A stretch of 37,012 nucleotides of DNA from Candidatus Omnitrophota bacterium (GTDB taxonomy: Bacteria > Omnitrophota > Gorgyraeia > Zapsychrales > Zapsychraceae): positions 1 to 37,012 of the forward strand of contig JAKLDK010000007.1 of the NCBI GenBank assembly GCA_022703565.1, read 5' to 3'. A program made the position numbers and the translations under genes. Of the stretch, positions 18,917 to 29,616 are shown in pieces. Numbering within the stretch: position 1 is the stretch's first letter; each line of letters opens with the position of its first letter. The notes beneath the pieces are model-generated. The model ran no database searches. It was not told where the DNA came from and saw only the letters and a program-made list of their open reading frames with translations.

Positions 18917-19072
18917 AATGTCCCTGCTGTGTGCGTTAGGGTTAATTAAAAAAGAACCAACACATTCTTTATGGGAATAATCCTTTTAACGTATCGTAAG
19001 GATACTTAAAGATGTTCCCACTTGGTGAAACGGTTCACCTTTTATTATCCCGACGGCATTGGTGGGGATTTA
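18917..19072 (+). ncRNA. ssrS: 6S RNA-like small RNA (ssrS candidate)
   Basis: The segment folds into a rod. A long closing helix pairs 18922-18941 with 19049-19067, interrupted by small bulges and containing several G-U pairs. An open central region follows, with a small hairpin GGTGAA-ACGG-TTCACC (19024-19039) on its 3' side. The terminal stem pairs TGGGAA (18972-18977) with TTCCCA (19015-19020) and ATCCTT (18980-18985) with AAGGAT (18998-19003). This closing-stem, bubble and terminal-stem layout is that of 6S RNA, which binds sigma70 RNA polymerase. Synteny agrees: in many bacteria ssrS sits close to 5-formyltetrahydrofolate cyclo-ligase, rny or pheT-side genes. The small size (about 155 bases) and by-eye folding keep confidence moderate. 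Confidence 0.65.
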
Positions 19073-24145: not shown

Positions 24146-25474
24146 ATGGTTAAGGTCAGATTTGCTCCCAGTCCGACGGGATACTTACATATTGGTGGTG
24201 CTCGAACCGCACTGTTTAATTGGCTTTATGCCAAGTCGCAACAAGGCCAGTTTATTTTACGAATAGAAGACACCGATTTAGAGCGCTCAAAAAAAGAATA
24301 TGAAGATGAAATCCTCTTTAGCATGAAATGGCTCGGAATGGATTGGGATGAGTTGCATTATCAAAGCAAGCGGTTTGATTTATACCGCGCGAAAGCCGCA
24401 CAACTTGTTTCCGAAGGCAAGGCTTACCAAGAAAATGGCGCAACGCTTCTCAAAACTACCAAACAAGAAATAAAAATCTTTGATTTAATTCGCGGTGAAA
24501 TTACTTTCGACACAACTAATTTTATCTCTTTAAAAGAAGACGGCACTCCGTTTTTTAATGCGCAAGGAGAGCCTGTTCTTAAAGATGAGGTTTTGATAAA
24601 ACATGACGGGTCTCCAGCTTATAATTTTTGTTGTGTAATTGATGATTCGGCAATGGAAATTACGCATGTTATTCGCGGCGAAGACCATATTTCCAATACT
24701 CCCAAACAAATTTTGATGTATCAGGCCCTAGGTTTAAAACCGCCTAAGTTTGCGCACTTACCTTTAATTATGGGTGAAGATGGTGGAAGATTGTCAAAAA
24801 GAACAGGCGCCGTTGCGGTAAGCGATTATCGCAAAATGGGATTTCTGCCGGAAGCTATTGTAAACTATTTAATGCTTTTGGGCTGGTCTCCGGGTAATAA
24901 TCAGGAAATTATTGAACTGCTTTCTGCGGTTAAGAATTTTTCTATCAAAAAAGTAAATAAAGCTGCGGCAGTGTTTTCAATGGAGAAATTAACGTGGATT
25001 AATGGCGAATATATTAAGAAAAAAGACCCGAAGGCCTTGGCCGAATTAATAAAGCCATTTTTAGATGAAGCCGGGATAAATTATAAAGATAAAGCCCCGG
25101 CGCTTTTGGCGCAGGTGGTCAAATTATATCAAAAAAGGATTCCGACGCTAAAAGATTTTATTCCTCGTGCTGGTTATGTTTTTTATGATGAAATTAGTAT
25201 TCCGCTTGAATTAAAAGAGAAATATTTAACGGCGGATAAAAAGCCGGCGTTTAATTTATTAAGCGAAAATATAAAAATCCTTTCTGATTTTAATGCTAAA
25301 ACAGCTGAAGAAACGTTTAGAGAGATAGTTAAAGATTTAAATATTGATAGCGCCGAACTTGTGCATCCGGTTAGAATAGCTTTGACTGCCAGTGAAGTTG
25401 GTCCGGGTTTGTTTGAAACAATGGAAATGCTAGGTAAGAATTTAACTGTTAAAAGGTTGCAGCAGGCGATATAA
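24146..25474 (+). CDS. gltX: Glutamyl-tRNA synthetase
   Basis: GluRS is a class I synthetase. The 442-residue protein starts with RFAPSPTGYLHIGGARTALF (the HIGH motif is HIGG), continues with RIEDTDLERS and HVIRGEDHISNTPKQILMYQ, and has the KMSKS-type GRLSKRTGA. The C-terminal anticodon-binding region is somewhat short compared with the usual 470-490 residues. Because a GlnRS gene is also present, this enzyme is probably the discriminating type; I cannot confirm this from sequence. It is followed by a terminator hairpin. Confidence 0.96.
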   Translation: MVKVRFAPSPTGYLHIGGARTALFNWLYAKSQQGQFILRIEDTDLERSKKEYEDEILFSMKWLGMDWDELHYQSKRFDLYRAKAAQLVSEGKAYQENGATLLKTTKQEIKIFDLIRGEITFDTTNFISLKEDGTPFFNAQGEPVLKDEVLIKHDGSPAYNFCCVIDDSAMEITHVIRGEDHISNTPKQILMYQALGLKPPKFAHLPLIMGEDGGRLSKRTGAVAVSDYRKMGFLPEAIVNYLMLLGWSPGNNQEIIELLSAVKNFSIKKVNKAAAVFSMEKLTWINGEYIKKKDPKALAELIKPFLDEAGINYKDKAPALLAQVVKLYQKRIPTLKDFIPRAGYVFYDEISIPLELKEKYLTADKKPAFNLLSENIKILSDFNAKTAEETFREIVKDLNIDSAELVHPVRIALTASEVGPGLFETMEMLGKNLTVKRLQQAI

Positions 25475-25480
25475 TTTTTC

Positions 25481-25527
25481 TGCCCTTTCTTTAGACAAAG
25501 AAAAAGAGAAGGGGCAATTTTATTTTT
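25481..25527 (+). terminator. Terminator-like hairpin after gltX
   Basis: TGCCCTTTCTTT pairs imperfectly with AAAGAGAAGGGGCA and is followed by ATTTTATTTTTG. It lies 6 bases after the gltX stop. Confidence 0.65.
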
Positions 25528-25532
25528 GTGCA

Positions 25533-25624
25533 TTTAGAAAATTTGCCCAAACCAACTTACAGTTTTTTACCAGAAGAAGTTGGCAAGTGGCAAAAACAAC
25601 TATTTATTTTTAGAAAATTTGCCC
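25533..25624. repeat. 16-base direct repeat pair in the gltX to tRNA-Gln gap
   Basis: TTTAGAAAATTTGCCC occurs exactly at 25533-25548 and 25609-25624. A third, degenerate copy (TCTAGAAAAT ... TTTGCCCTG) runs from about 25666 into the 5' end of tRNA-Gln (25687-25695). The gap 25475-25688 has no convincing gene. Confidence 0.7.
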
Positions 25625-25660
25625 TGCCCTTTTTGAAAGACAAAAAAGGACAAGGGCAAA
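25618..25660. repeat. Long imperfect inverted repeat upstream of tRNA-Gln
   Basis: Arms TTTGCCCTGCCCTTTTT (25618-25634) and AAAAAAGGACAAGGGCAAA (25642-25660) pair nearly completely around a 7-base loop. Its outer arm repeats TTTGCCCTG, the first bases of the tRNA-Gln region. Confidence 0.7.
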
Positions 25661-25688
25661 CTTGTTCTAGAAAATATAAAGGTAACTT

Positions 25689-25759
25689 TGCCCTGTGGTG
25701 TAACGGTAGCACCTGAGATTCTGGATCTCATTGTTTAGGTTCGAAACCTAACGGGGCAG
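25689..25759 (+). tRNA. tRNA-Gln (CUG)
   Basis: Acceptor arms TGCCCTG and CGGGGCA pair with one G-U; the anticodon stem TGAGA/TCTCA encloses TTCTGGA, giving CUG; the T-arm is TAGGTTCGAAACCTA. The discriminator is G and CCA is not encoded. It reads CAG; a UUG-anticodon tRNA for CAA must lie elsewhere. Its last 17 bases are repeated 141 bases downstream. Confidence 0.95.
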
Positions 25760-25900
25760 TAGTTTTCTTTTGTCCCGCATTTTGCGGGACAAAAGAAAAC
25801 TACATCTCTGAAATGCGAACCTATGCGAAGCATGGGTTCCGACTGCAAGAAGTCCCAAACGTGAGCAAAACGAACATTTGGGAGAAACCTAACGGGGCAG
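25743..25900. mobile_element. 141-base hairpin element bounded by copies of the tRNA-Gln 3' end
   Basis: A 17-base direct repeat GAAACCTAACGGGGCAG lies at the tRNA 3' end (25743-25759) and again at 25884-25900. Between them stand three tandem hairpins: a perfect 20-base-pair stem (25759-25778 with 25784-25803), GAACCTATGC/GCATGGGTTC with a GAA loop (25817-25839), and TCCCAAA/TTTGGGA (25853-25883). The layout resembles attL/attR repeats left by an element that integrates at tRNA 3' ends. No integrase is encoded, so it would be a non-autonomous or decayed element. A local duplication is the alternative. Confidence 0.5.
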
Positions 25901-25917
25901 AAGAACATAACTAATTT

Positions 25918-26481
25918 ATGCTAGCTTTTTTATCTTCATTTCTTATTATCTTTATTGCGGAGATGGGCGACAAAACCCAGCTTTTGGCGATAGCTTTTGC
26001 TTCAAAATACAAAATTTACCAAGTTATTATCGCCATATCTTTGGCTACTTTTATATGTAATGCGATAGCTGTTTTGTTGGGCGGTTTCTTAGTCGCAGTT
26101 GTTCCTTTAGATATAATTTCGTTTCTGGCCGCAGTGTCTTTTATTTGCTTCGGCATATGGACATTACGCGAGAAGGGTACTGATAGGGCAAAAGAAACAA
26201 ACTCTAATCTCGGACCGTTTTTAACTGTTTTGTTTGCTTTTTTATTCGCTGAGCTCGGAGACAAAACTCAATTGGCAACAATTAGCTTGGTTGTTGAGTA
26301 TAAAAACATACTGGGAGTTTTATTGGGAGCAACGGCGGGAATGATTTTATCCAACGTAGTAGGAATGATTGTTGGACTTTTGCTCAAGAAGCATTTACCG
26401 GAAAAAGTTATTAAATGGATCTCAGCCTTAATATTTATTTTCTTCGGGATTTTCGGTCTTACTAGGCTATTGTTTTTTTAA
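25918..26481 (+). CDS. GDT1/TMEM165 family (UPF0016) cation exporter, probably Mn2+
   Basis: The 187-residue membrane protein has six predicted helices in two repeats, each with the family motif: EMGDKTQLLA (about 15-24) and ELGDKTQLAT (about 114-123). The acidic residues in these motifs bind the transported cation; bacterial members (MneA) export Mn2+. The preceding 17 bases follow directly on the tRNA-derived repeat and show no strong ribosome binding site. No yybP-ykoY manganese riboswitch was recognised upstream. The gene converges on the permease gene with only 8 bases between stops. Confidence 0.92.
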   Translation: MLAFLSSFLIIFIAEMGDKTQLLAIAFASKYKIYQVIIAISLATFICNAIAVLLGGFLVAVVPLDIISFLAAVSFICFGIWTLREKGTDRAKETNSNLGPFLTVLFAFLFAELGDKTQLATISLVVEYKNILGVLLGATAGMILSNVVGMIVGLLLKKHLPEKVIKWISALIFIFFGIFGLTRLLFF

Positions 26482-27918: not shown

Positions 27919-29616
27919 ATGAGCGAATTACACGACAAAAATAACGAATCTTTGGACTTTATTCGGCAGAAAGTTGCTGATGATTTGAAGTCGGGTAAGA
28001 ATAACGGGAAAGTTTTAACCCGTTTCCCGCCGGAACCAAACGGATATTTGCATATCGGCCATGCCAAATCAATTTGCCTGAATTTTGGCGTTGCCCGTGA
28101 ATTTAATGGTTTATGCAATCTGCGTTTTGATGATACTAATCCCACCAAAGAAGAACAAGAATATGTAGATTCAATAAAAGATGCGGTTAAATGGCTGGGT
28201 TTTGATTGGGGCAACCGTGAGTTTTATGCTTCCGATTATTTTGAGAAAATTTATGGGTTTGCGATAGAACTTATTAAAAAAGGAAAAGCTTTTGTTTGTG
28301 ATTTGACGCCGGATGAAATTCGAAAATTCAGAGGGACATTGACGGAAGGCGGCAAAGAGAGCCCTTTTCGTAATCGCTCTCTCGAGGAGAACCTAAGGCT
28401 TTTTGAAGAAATGCGCCAAGGCAAATATAAAGACGGAGAAAAAGTTTTAAGAGCCAAGATTGATATGAATTCCGGGAATATTAATATGCGCGACCCGGTT
28501 ATTTACCGCATTTTGCATACGCCCCACAATCGTACCGGGAATAAATGGTGCATATACCCGATGTATGATTTTGCTCACGCGCTTTCTGATTCTATTGAAG
28601 GGATAACTCATTCTTTGTGTACGCTTGAATTTGAAGATCACCGGCCTTTGTATAATTGGATTTTAGAAAATTTATCTGTGTCTTCTCATCCTGAGCAAAC
28701 TGAATTTGCCCGGCTTAATATGAATTATACGGTAATGAGCAAGCGCAAGCTTCTTTTTTTAGTCGAAAAAGGGCTAGTGTCGGGGTGGGATGACCCCAGG
28801 ATGCCGACGATAGTTGGAATGCGGCGGCGTGGTTATTTGCCTCAATCAATACGCAATTTTTGCGATGTGATCGGAATTGCCAAAAGAGAAAATGTTATTG
28901 ATATCGAGCTTTTAGAGCATTGTTTGCGGGAAGATTTGAACAAGCAAGCATTGCGGGTAATGGGAGTTTTACGGCCAATAAAAGTTGTGATTGATAATTA
29001 TCCGGACAATAATGGCGAAGAGCTGGAAGCAATTAACAATCCGGAAGATTTATCTGCCGGAACCAGGAAAATTAAATTTTCAAAAGTAATTTATATTGAA
29101 CGAGATGACTTTTCCGAGAATCCGCCTAAGAATTATTTTCGCTTATCCGTCGGAGCCGAGGTAAGATTGCGCTATGCTTATTTTATAAAATGCGTAAGCA
29201 TTATTAAAGATGACAAAACCGGTGAAATTGTTGAGCTACATTGTACATATGACCCCGCAACAAAAGGCGGAAATTCACCCGATGGGCGCAAGGTTAAAGG
29301 AACCATTCATTGGGTTAGCTCGGATAATTGCGTTGCTGCCGAAGTGCGTTTGTATGACCGTTTGTTTACCAAGGAAAATCCAGCTGAAGCCAAAGACGAA
29401 GATTTTACCAGCTTTTTAAATGATAAGTCGTTGGAAGTAATAAAGAATTGTAAGCTGGAGTCGAGTTTAAAGGCAGCTCCAAAGGGAGCTGTTTTTCAAT
29501 TTGAACGTTTGGGATATTTTTGCGTCGATCCTGATTCGCAGCCCGGTAGTATGGTTTTTAACCGTACGGTTACTCTTAAAGATACTTGGGGCAAGATTAA
29601 TCAAAAACAAAAATAA
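27919..29616 (+). CDS. glnS: Glutaminyl-tRNA synthetase
   Basis: GlnRS charges tRNA-Gln directly. The 565-residue protein has the class I signature [28 protein letters not shown], the GlnRS-specific [19 protein letters not shown] and the KMSKS motif VMSKRKL. The C-terminal two-barrel anticodon-binding domain is complete (about 340-550). Length matches the bacterial family, which was originally acquired from eukaryotes. It lies 2.2 kb after tRNA-Gln, separated by two transporter genes, and has its own promoter. Confidence 0.97.

Follow-up and report, generated by a model that had tools for sequence, protein, structure and literature searches.

In the genome of a Candidatus Omnitrophota bacterium (1.87-Mb assembly, 92% complete), the 3' end of an intact tRNA-Gln(CTG) gene is found a second time shortly downstream, with hairpins in between. 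This raises the question of whether the intervening DNA is an insertion directed at the tRNA gene, and if so, which kind of element it represents. We analyzed the locus within a stretch of 37,012 nucleotides (contig JAKLDK010000007.1 of assembly GCA_022703565.1, hereafter the window) and compared it with related genomes, using assemblies that are draft and fragmented and sample sizes in the tens. The locus is composed as follows.

24146-25474, + strand: gltX-type synthetase gene (Pfam; tblastn), syntenic with tRNA-Gln(CTG) in relatives and used as anchor for orthologous sites.
25533-25687, + strand: upstream stretch with hairpins and two 16-nt copies of TTTAGAAAATTTGCCC, resembling the 5' end of tRNA-Gln.
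25689-25759, + strand: intact tRNA-Gln with CTG anticodon, CCA not encoded (ARAGORN; Rfam RF00005).
25743-25759, + strand: repeat copy 1, within the intact tRNA-Gln, positions 57-73 (exact repeat; breakpoint mapping).
25743-25883, + strand: putative inserted unit of 141 bp, made up of a regenerated tRNA 3' end and three hairpins, with its insertion point between C56 and 57 (from the repeat, the breakpoint and a homologous unit in genome G001).
25759-25803, no strand assigned: hairpin 1, a perfect 21-bp stem with a 3-nt loop (25759-25779 paired with 25783-25803).
25817-25839, no strand assigned: hairpin 2, GAACC-TATGCGAAGCATG-GGTTC, with T-stem-like arms enclosing a GCGAAGC mini-hairpin.
25840-25883, + strand: 44-nt module including hairpin 3 (25853-25883), flanked directly by TTC on one side and GAA on the other, both part of the downstream T-arm copy.
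25884-25900, + strand: repeat copy 2 (exact repeat), the putative displaced original tRNA-Gln 3' end, positions 57-73.
25918-26481, + strand: GDT1-family transporter gene (Pfam), downstream flank.

The tRNA-Gln(CTG) gene is intact, the ARAGORN call being one base longer on each side than the Rfam one, and its final 17 bases (GAAACCTAACGGGGCAG) occur in two exact copies offset by 141 bases, as a preliminary description of this DNA had claimed. The repeat starts just 3' of the T-loop residue C56 and ends with the discriminator base, and the locus thus presents an intact target and a displaced 3' fragment as direct repeats. An insertion between C56 and 57, the left end of which supplies a new 57-73 segment, would have kept the tRNA intact while displacing its old 3' end by 141 bp downstream. 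Counting recurrences with at least 16 of 17 matches at most 500 bp downstream, we found the tRNA's own last 17 nt again for 6 of the 88 tRNAs of an unbiased set, versus none in 2031 mismatched controls (tRNA end against the flank of another isotype), which shows that the repeat is not due to chance.

On the 5' side, the copies and hairpins at 25533-25687 are possibly the marks of further insertions, and similar hairpins precede tRNA-Gln in three other genomes (G032, G038, and G013). Hairpins made of copies of the tRNA-Gln 5' end (TTGCCCTG...CTGGGCAAA) were observed across 25475-25687, and several relatives have them as well in the gap separating gltX from tRNA-Gln (loci L175, L194, and L009). 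The window carries two neighbouring class I Glu/Gln-type synthetase genes, at 24146-25474 and 27919-29616, the latter being glnS-like with both anticodon-binding domains present, as well as a match to the 6S/SsrS RNA at 18918-19072 (+) with 54.5 bits, above the Rfam gathering score.

The 158-nt stretch covering the unit and the second repeat copy folds with -68.5 kcal/mol, versus -36.8 +/- 4.2 in dinucleotide shuffles (z = -7.6), none of the 200 shuffles being equally stable. Hairpin 1 begins at the discriminator base (G25759) as previously described, and with 21 bp its stem is one pair longer than had been reported; being U-rich ahead of the stem core and A-rich behind, it is unlike the usual intrinsic terminator on the + strand. 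Hairpins 2 and 3 are weaker, yet still better than shuffles (z about -3), so that all three hairpins that had been claimed between the repeats were recovered. The unit is too small to hold a gene, as had also been pointed out, and any enzyme acting on it would have to do so in trans. No second full copy of the 141-bp unit is present in the 1.87-Mb assembly. The multiple near-identical genomic copies expected of a MITE were not seen, only a 24-nt match to hairpin 2 beside tRNA-Met being found in this genome. A group I intron within the tRNA was rejected, the tRNA-Gln being intact and no Rfam intron match being found; the Rfam search returned no match for the hairpin unit either.

The synteny between gltX and tRNA-Gln(CTG) is kept in 17 relatives (tblastn), and the 3'-end repeat is absent at 16 of these orthologous sites, which means that empty sites exist and that the unit is not fixed. 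At the remaining site (G053, locus L011), a different insert is present, in which hairpins are combined with copies of the tRNA end in both inverted and direct orientation. This insert and one found behind tRNA-Arg (G038, L102) have GGATGGCCGACCCG...GGAGGGCGCC modules in common, and both contain inverted as well as direct copies of tRNA T arms. In the sister species G001, where tRNA-Gln(CTG) was not found in an 82% complete assembly, a homologous unit of three hairpins follows tRNA-Gln(TTG) and aligns with the window unit along its entire length. It is flanked by a repeat of the 3' end of that very tRNA (GAACCCTGGCTGGGCAG); its hairpin 2 is nearly identical to that of the window unit, and its hairpin 1 has changed in sequence with the pairing kept. 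In the window genome, the own 3' ends of tRNA-Lys (contig C182) and tRNA-Met (C107) are repeated downstream amid hairpins. The preliminary description had proposed looking for empty tRNA-Gln sites and for units next to other tRNA 3' ends, and had named as evidence against a mobile element the fixation of the same bases at this locus in all relatives, with no copies elsewhere and no empty site; empty sites and related units at other tRNA genes are what we found.

These distributions bear on the possibility that the hairpins form a functional transcribed trailer, protecting or processing the tRNA-Gln precursor. Such a role would fit the strong fold that starts on the discriminator base and the maintained pairing of hairpin 1 in the sister species. 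It seems highly improbable, as the structure is absent at nearly all orthologous loci (16/17) and matches no Rfam family, and as a trailer or processed RNA leaves the own-end repeats at other tRNAs unexplained.

Hairpin 3 occurs, in reversed orientation, at the T-loop of a tRNA-Lys copy (G009) and of a tRNA-Glu copy (G038), in both cases exactly between TTC and GA(A/C) of the downstream T-arm copy of the respective tRNA. A search of GTDB genome contigs with its 31-nt pattern retrieved only two Omnitrophota contigs, both already among the relatives compared; these exact matches belong to Omnitrophota GWA2_47_8 and DeMMO3_17, the window genome being of the same order as both and of the same family as one. 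Such structures could also have arisen without any mobile element, through error-prone repair (template switching or fold-back duplication) that left scars in the naturally fragile stem-loop DNA of tRNA genes, the neighbouring nuclease genes of the GIY-YIG type being neutral passengers. The inverted tRNA copies found besides direct ones at some loci (G053; tRNA-Arg of G038), the perfect palindromes, and the general frequency of hairpins near tRNAs (1.30 per kb) are in line with this view. Yet, scars would hardly account for one hairpin module that is found, in both orientations, at an identical T-loop position in three tRNA species from three genera, and the nucleases cluster by tRNA isotype (see below); we therefore consider this explanation quite unlikely.

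The position of the breakpoint is shared well beyond tRNA-Gln. Downstream 3' copies start between C56 and 57 for tRNA-Gln (window and G001), two tRNA-Lys, and tRNA-Glu, -Arg, -Met, -Val, and -Ser, and they start in the anticodon loop for tRNA-Thr, -Leu, and -Ser; 5' copies, lying upstream, in most cases extend as far as the D arm or the anticodon arm. For tRNA-Thr (G009), tRNA-Ser (G035), and tRNA-Leu (G006), the intact tRNA is flanked by its own 5' and 3' halves, broken at the same loop position. At the tRNA-Thr locus (L101, G009:C61), the intact gene has its 5' half (1-35) on one side and its 3' half (36-76), together with some flanking sequence, on the other, and both joints carry hairpins. 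In some units, the duplication extends 7-11 bp beyond the tRNA.

The preliminary description had suggested that the 141 bp could be a miniature tRNA-targeting element in need of an integrase in trans, or else a processed RNA attached to the tRNA transcript. The tRNA-restoring insertion anatomy and the displaced 3' fragment implied by the first of these readings stand, but a dedicated tyrosine integrase finds no support. In its fuller form, this alternative posits a MITE-like miniature integrative element with a T-loop target, the repeats being attL and attR. An intact tRNA followed by an insert and a displaced 3' fragment is indeed the anatomy of integrase islands, and judged by anatomy alone it would do equally well; crossovers in T- and anticodon loops are also known for integrases (Islander, PMC4383910; Ms6, PMC1762012). 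However, just two tyrosine recombinases (PF00589), both of XerC/D size, are found in the 92% complete window genome, none lies in the unit, and none of 30 tyrosine recombinase loci has a tRNA nearby. Furthermore, the units fit many tRNA species, each with its own 3' end, some of the duplications run past the tRNA, and the enzyme class that tracks tRNA fragments is the GIY-YIG endonuclease and not the integrase. Movement by an integrase thus seems unlikely.

A GIY-YIG open reading frame lies between the intact tRNA and a displaced 57-77 copy in the tRNA-Val insert of G038 (L099/L142), and we therefore surveyed the stand-alone GIY-YIG genes of the window genome and 18 relatives (n = 68). A tRNA gene lies at most 600 bp from 28 of them, always on the same strand (28/28), and is absent within this distance for the other 40. 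Based on tRNA density, we estimate the expectation at ~3%; among control loci, a tRNA was found within 1.5 kb of 1/20 Y1 transposase genes and 0/30 tyrosine recombinase (Xer) genes. A second set, drawn from 25 genomes at greater distance, showed a weaker association, with 4 of 27 GIY-YIG genes near tRNAs, one of these on the opposite strand. Partial copies of the adjoining tRNA are present near 14 of 30 GIY-YIG-linked tRNAs, typically in the order 5' half, GIY-YIG gene, intact tRNA, or intact tRNA, GIY-YIG gene, 3' fragment, and hairpins reach a density of 1.97 per kb near GIY-YIG genes versus 0.22 at Xer loci. For 13 of the 28 GIY-YIG proteins, the nearest protein from other genomes lies beside a tRNA of the same isotype, versus 2.6 expected from label shuffling (p = 4e-4), and across the family the endonuclease is thus linked to its target type. 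Part of this clustering may be due to vertical inheritance at orthologous loci, orthology having been partly checked, but orthology does not account for the isotype-matched pairs whose isoacceptors differ (Ser GGA/TGA, Gln TTG/CTG, Arg ACG/TCG). By sequence, the closest solved structures are UPF0213 proteins, and a search of viral contigs with one of the GIY-YIG proteins found no relatives. In L146 and L170, the GIY-YIG frames extend into the adjoining tRNA gene, the final residues being translated tRNA sequence.

GIY-YIG genes occupy the orthologous gltX-tRNA-Gln(CTG) site in three relatives (G032, G034, and G038), the G038 gene being frameshifted or truncated; the G032 locus reads GIY-YIG, tRNA(1-37), GIY-YIG, intact tRNA, and its two GIY-YIG genes are preceded by the same hairpins. 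The two GIY-YIG genes standing there in tandem beside gltX (L175, G032:C159), with the tRNA-Gln 5' half between them, are identical. At the tRNA-Gln(TTG)-glmU locus, the window genome has a GIY-YIG gene and no repeat, and the orthologous locus in G001 carries the hairpin unit (glmU was identified at both loci by eye from its translated start). The sole GIY-YIG/tRNA pair of the window genome has no displaced tRNA fragment, and the 141-bp unit itself encodes no GIY-YIG endonuclease, both of which weigh against a tie to such an enzyme; related units at other tRNAs do encode one.

The Y1 loci used as controls also speak to a further possibility, namely that the hairpins are of the REP/BIME type, mobilized by a Y1 (RAYT) transposase that happens to favour tRNA arms. 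GCGAAGC mini-loops and GGAG/GTAG-like feet on the hairpins are reminiscent of such repeats, and Y1 transposases occur in 16 of the 19 genomes examined. A Y1_Tnp search detected none in the window genome, however, only one of the 20 Y1 loci lies near a tRNA, and the Y1 flanks read in relatives contain repeats of other kinds and lack tRNA fragments, so that we regard this possibility as very unlikely. In L043 and L046, Y1 transposase genes of relatives lie between direct copies of other short repeats, such as AATTAGGTACGCGTCCCCGGAATTATT.

We propose instead, as a moderately probable explanation, that the 141-bp unit is a tRNA-restoring T-loop insertion, now gene-less, belonging to a family of GIY-YIG homing-type elements. 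The insertion and its targeting to the tRNA are well supported; the link to an endonuclease and the mode of mobilization are what we infer, the tie of the gene-less unit to a GIY-YIG nuclease being suggested by the shared breakpoint, locus, and hairpin style. The family would consist of small hairpin-bearing inserts in the T-loop or anticodon loop of Omnitrophota tRNA genes, some of them with a GIY-YIG gene of ~85 residues. The endonuclease, perhaps acting as a dimer, would recognize one particular kind of tRNA gene by its dyad-symmetric stem-loop DNA and cut it at the loop, and repair of the break would copy in the endonuclease gene, the hairpins, and a tRNA piece by which the target is restored. 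Hairpin units without a gene, like that in the window, may be moved in trans, or may be remnants or decay products, and the hairpins could serve as aids to recognition or be by-products of fold-back repair, a contribution of which is suggested by the inverted tRNA copies at some loci.

Parts of this scheme have precedents. In fungal mitochondria, mobile open reading frames replace the 3' end of the gene they enter, and double-hairpin elements are hairpin-only mobile modules; the likeness lies in endonuclease-linked inserts bringing a substitute gene end, the difference in their organellar location and their protein-gene targets.

In phages, SegB, a free-standing GIY-YIG homing endonuclease of T4-type phages, is described as being encoded among tRNA genes and spreading the tRNA region (Brok-Volchanskaya 2008, as cited in PMC13096335; PMC2988022), and in phage T6 it drives the tandem amplification of tRNA-segB units (PMC13096335), which resembles the GIY-YIG/tRNA tandem of G032. 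Common to both systems is a GIY-YIG enzyme among tRNA genes, and the location of the 141-bp unit in its target gene, together with the empty alleles at 16 of 17 orthologous sites, is as expected of a SegB-type homing element. Yet, SegB is a phage enzyme with a target listed as a tRNA intergenic region (table in PMC2988022), whereas the Omnitrophota units reside on a bacterial chromosome, with breakpoints inside tRNA loops and displaced tRNA halves; unlike SegB, their enzymes are single-domain proteins of ~85 aa, and hairpin-only units exist. Integrating elements are known to leave tRNA fragments (PMC9897764, PMC4383910, PMC3293823). Integrase islands in tRNA genes (Islander, PMC4383910) share with the Omnitrophota units the split target, the gene restored by the element, the displaced end fragment, and the T- and anticodon-loop sites, but the latter units have no integrase, measure 100-400 bp, and hold a GIY-YIG gene or only hairpins. 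The element disrupting tRNA-Thr in Caldiarchaeum is also a small mobile element that leaves a tRNA fragment beside the tRNA, but it is archaeal, 1.8 kb long, and associated with a predicted DNA recombinase and tRNA introns (PMC3293823). We place the 141-bp unit in neither class, because a SegB-type element would encode an endonuclease, which it lacks, and because no integrase was found that would make it an integrase island; by analogy, it would act as SegB-like elements do, homing to tRNA genes, and its displaced fragment gives it the anatomy of an integrase island.

The tiny tRNA-loop insertions linked to small GIY-YIG enzymes appear to form a lineage-wide group that was previously undescribed; the open-access papers searched contain no description of a GIY-YIG element inserted in the loop of a bacterial tRNA gene, which is weak evidence of absence. 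It is quite possible, if a little short of probable, that Omnitrophota chromosomes host minimal homing elements, in which single-domain GIY-YIG nucleases, each directed at the dyad-symmetric loops of certain tRNA genes, enter these along with DNA hairpins, restore the tRNA by means of a fragment they carry, and spawn gene-less units, the present one among them, that are moved in trans from one tRNA gene to another. If so, tRNA-linked homing endonucleases would not be restricted to phages but would remodel tRNA loci throughout a bacterial lineage, which would account for the tRNA halves and hairpins around tRNA genes. Such elements would also provide a ready system in which to test how very small nucleases select the stem-loop DNA of a tRNA gene, and a candidate function for the abundant small GIY-YIG proteins of uncultured bacteria that are annotated without one.
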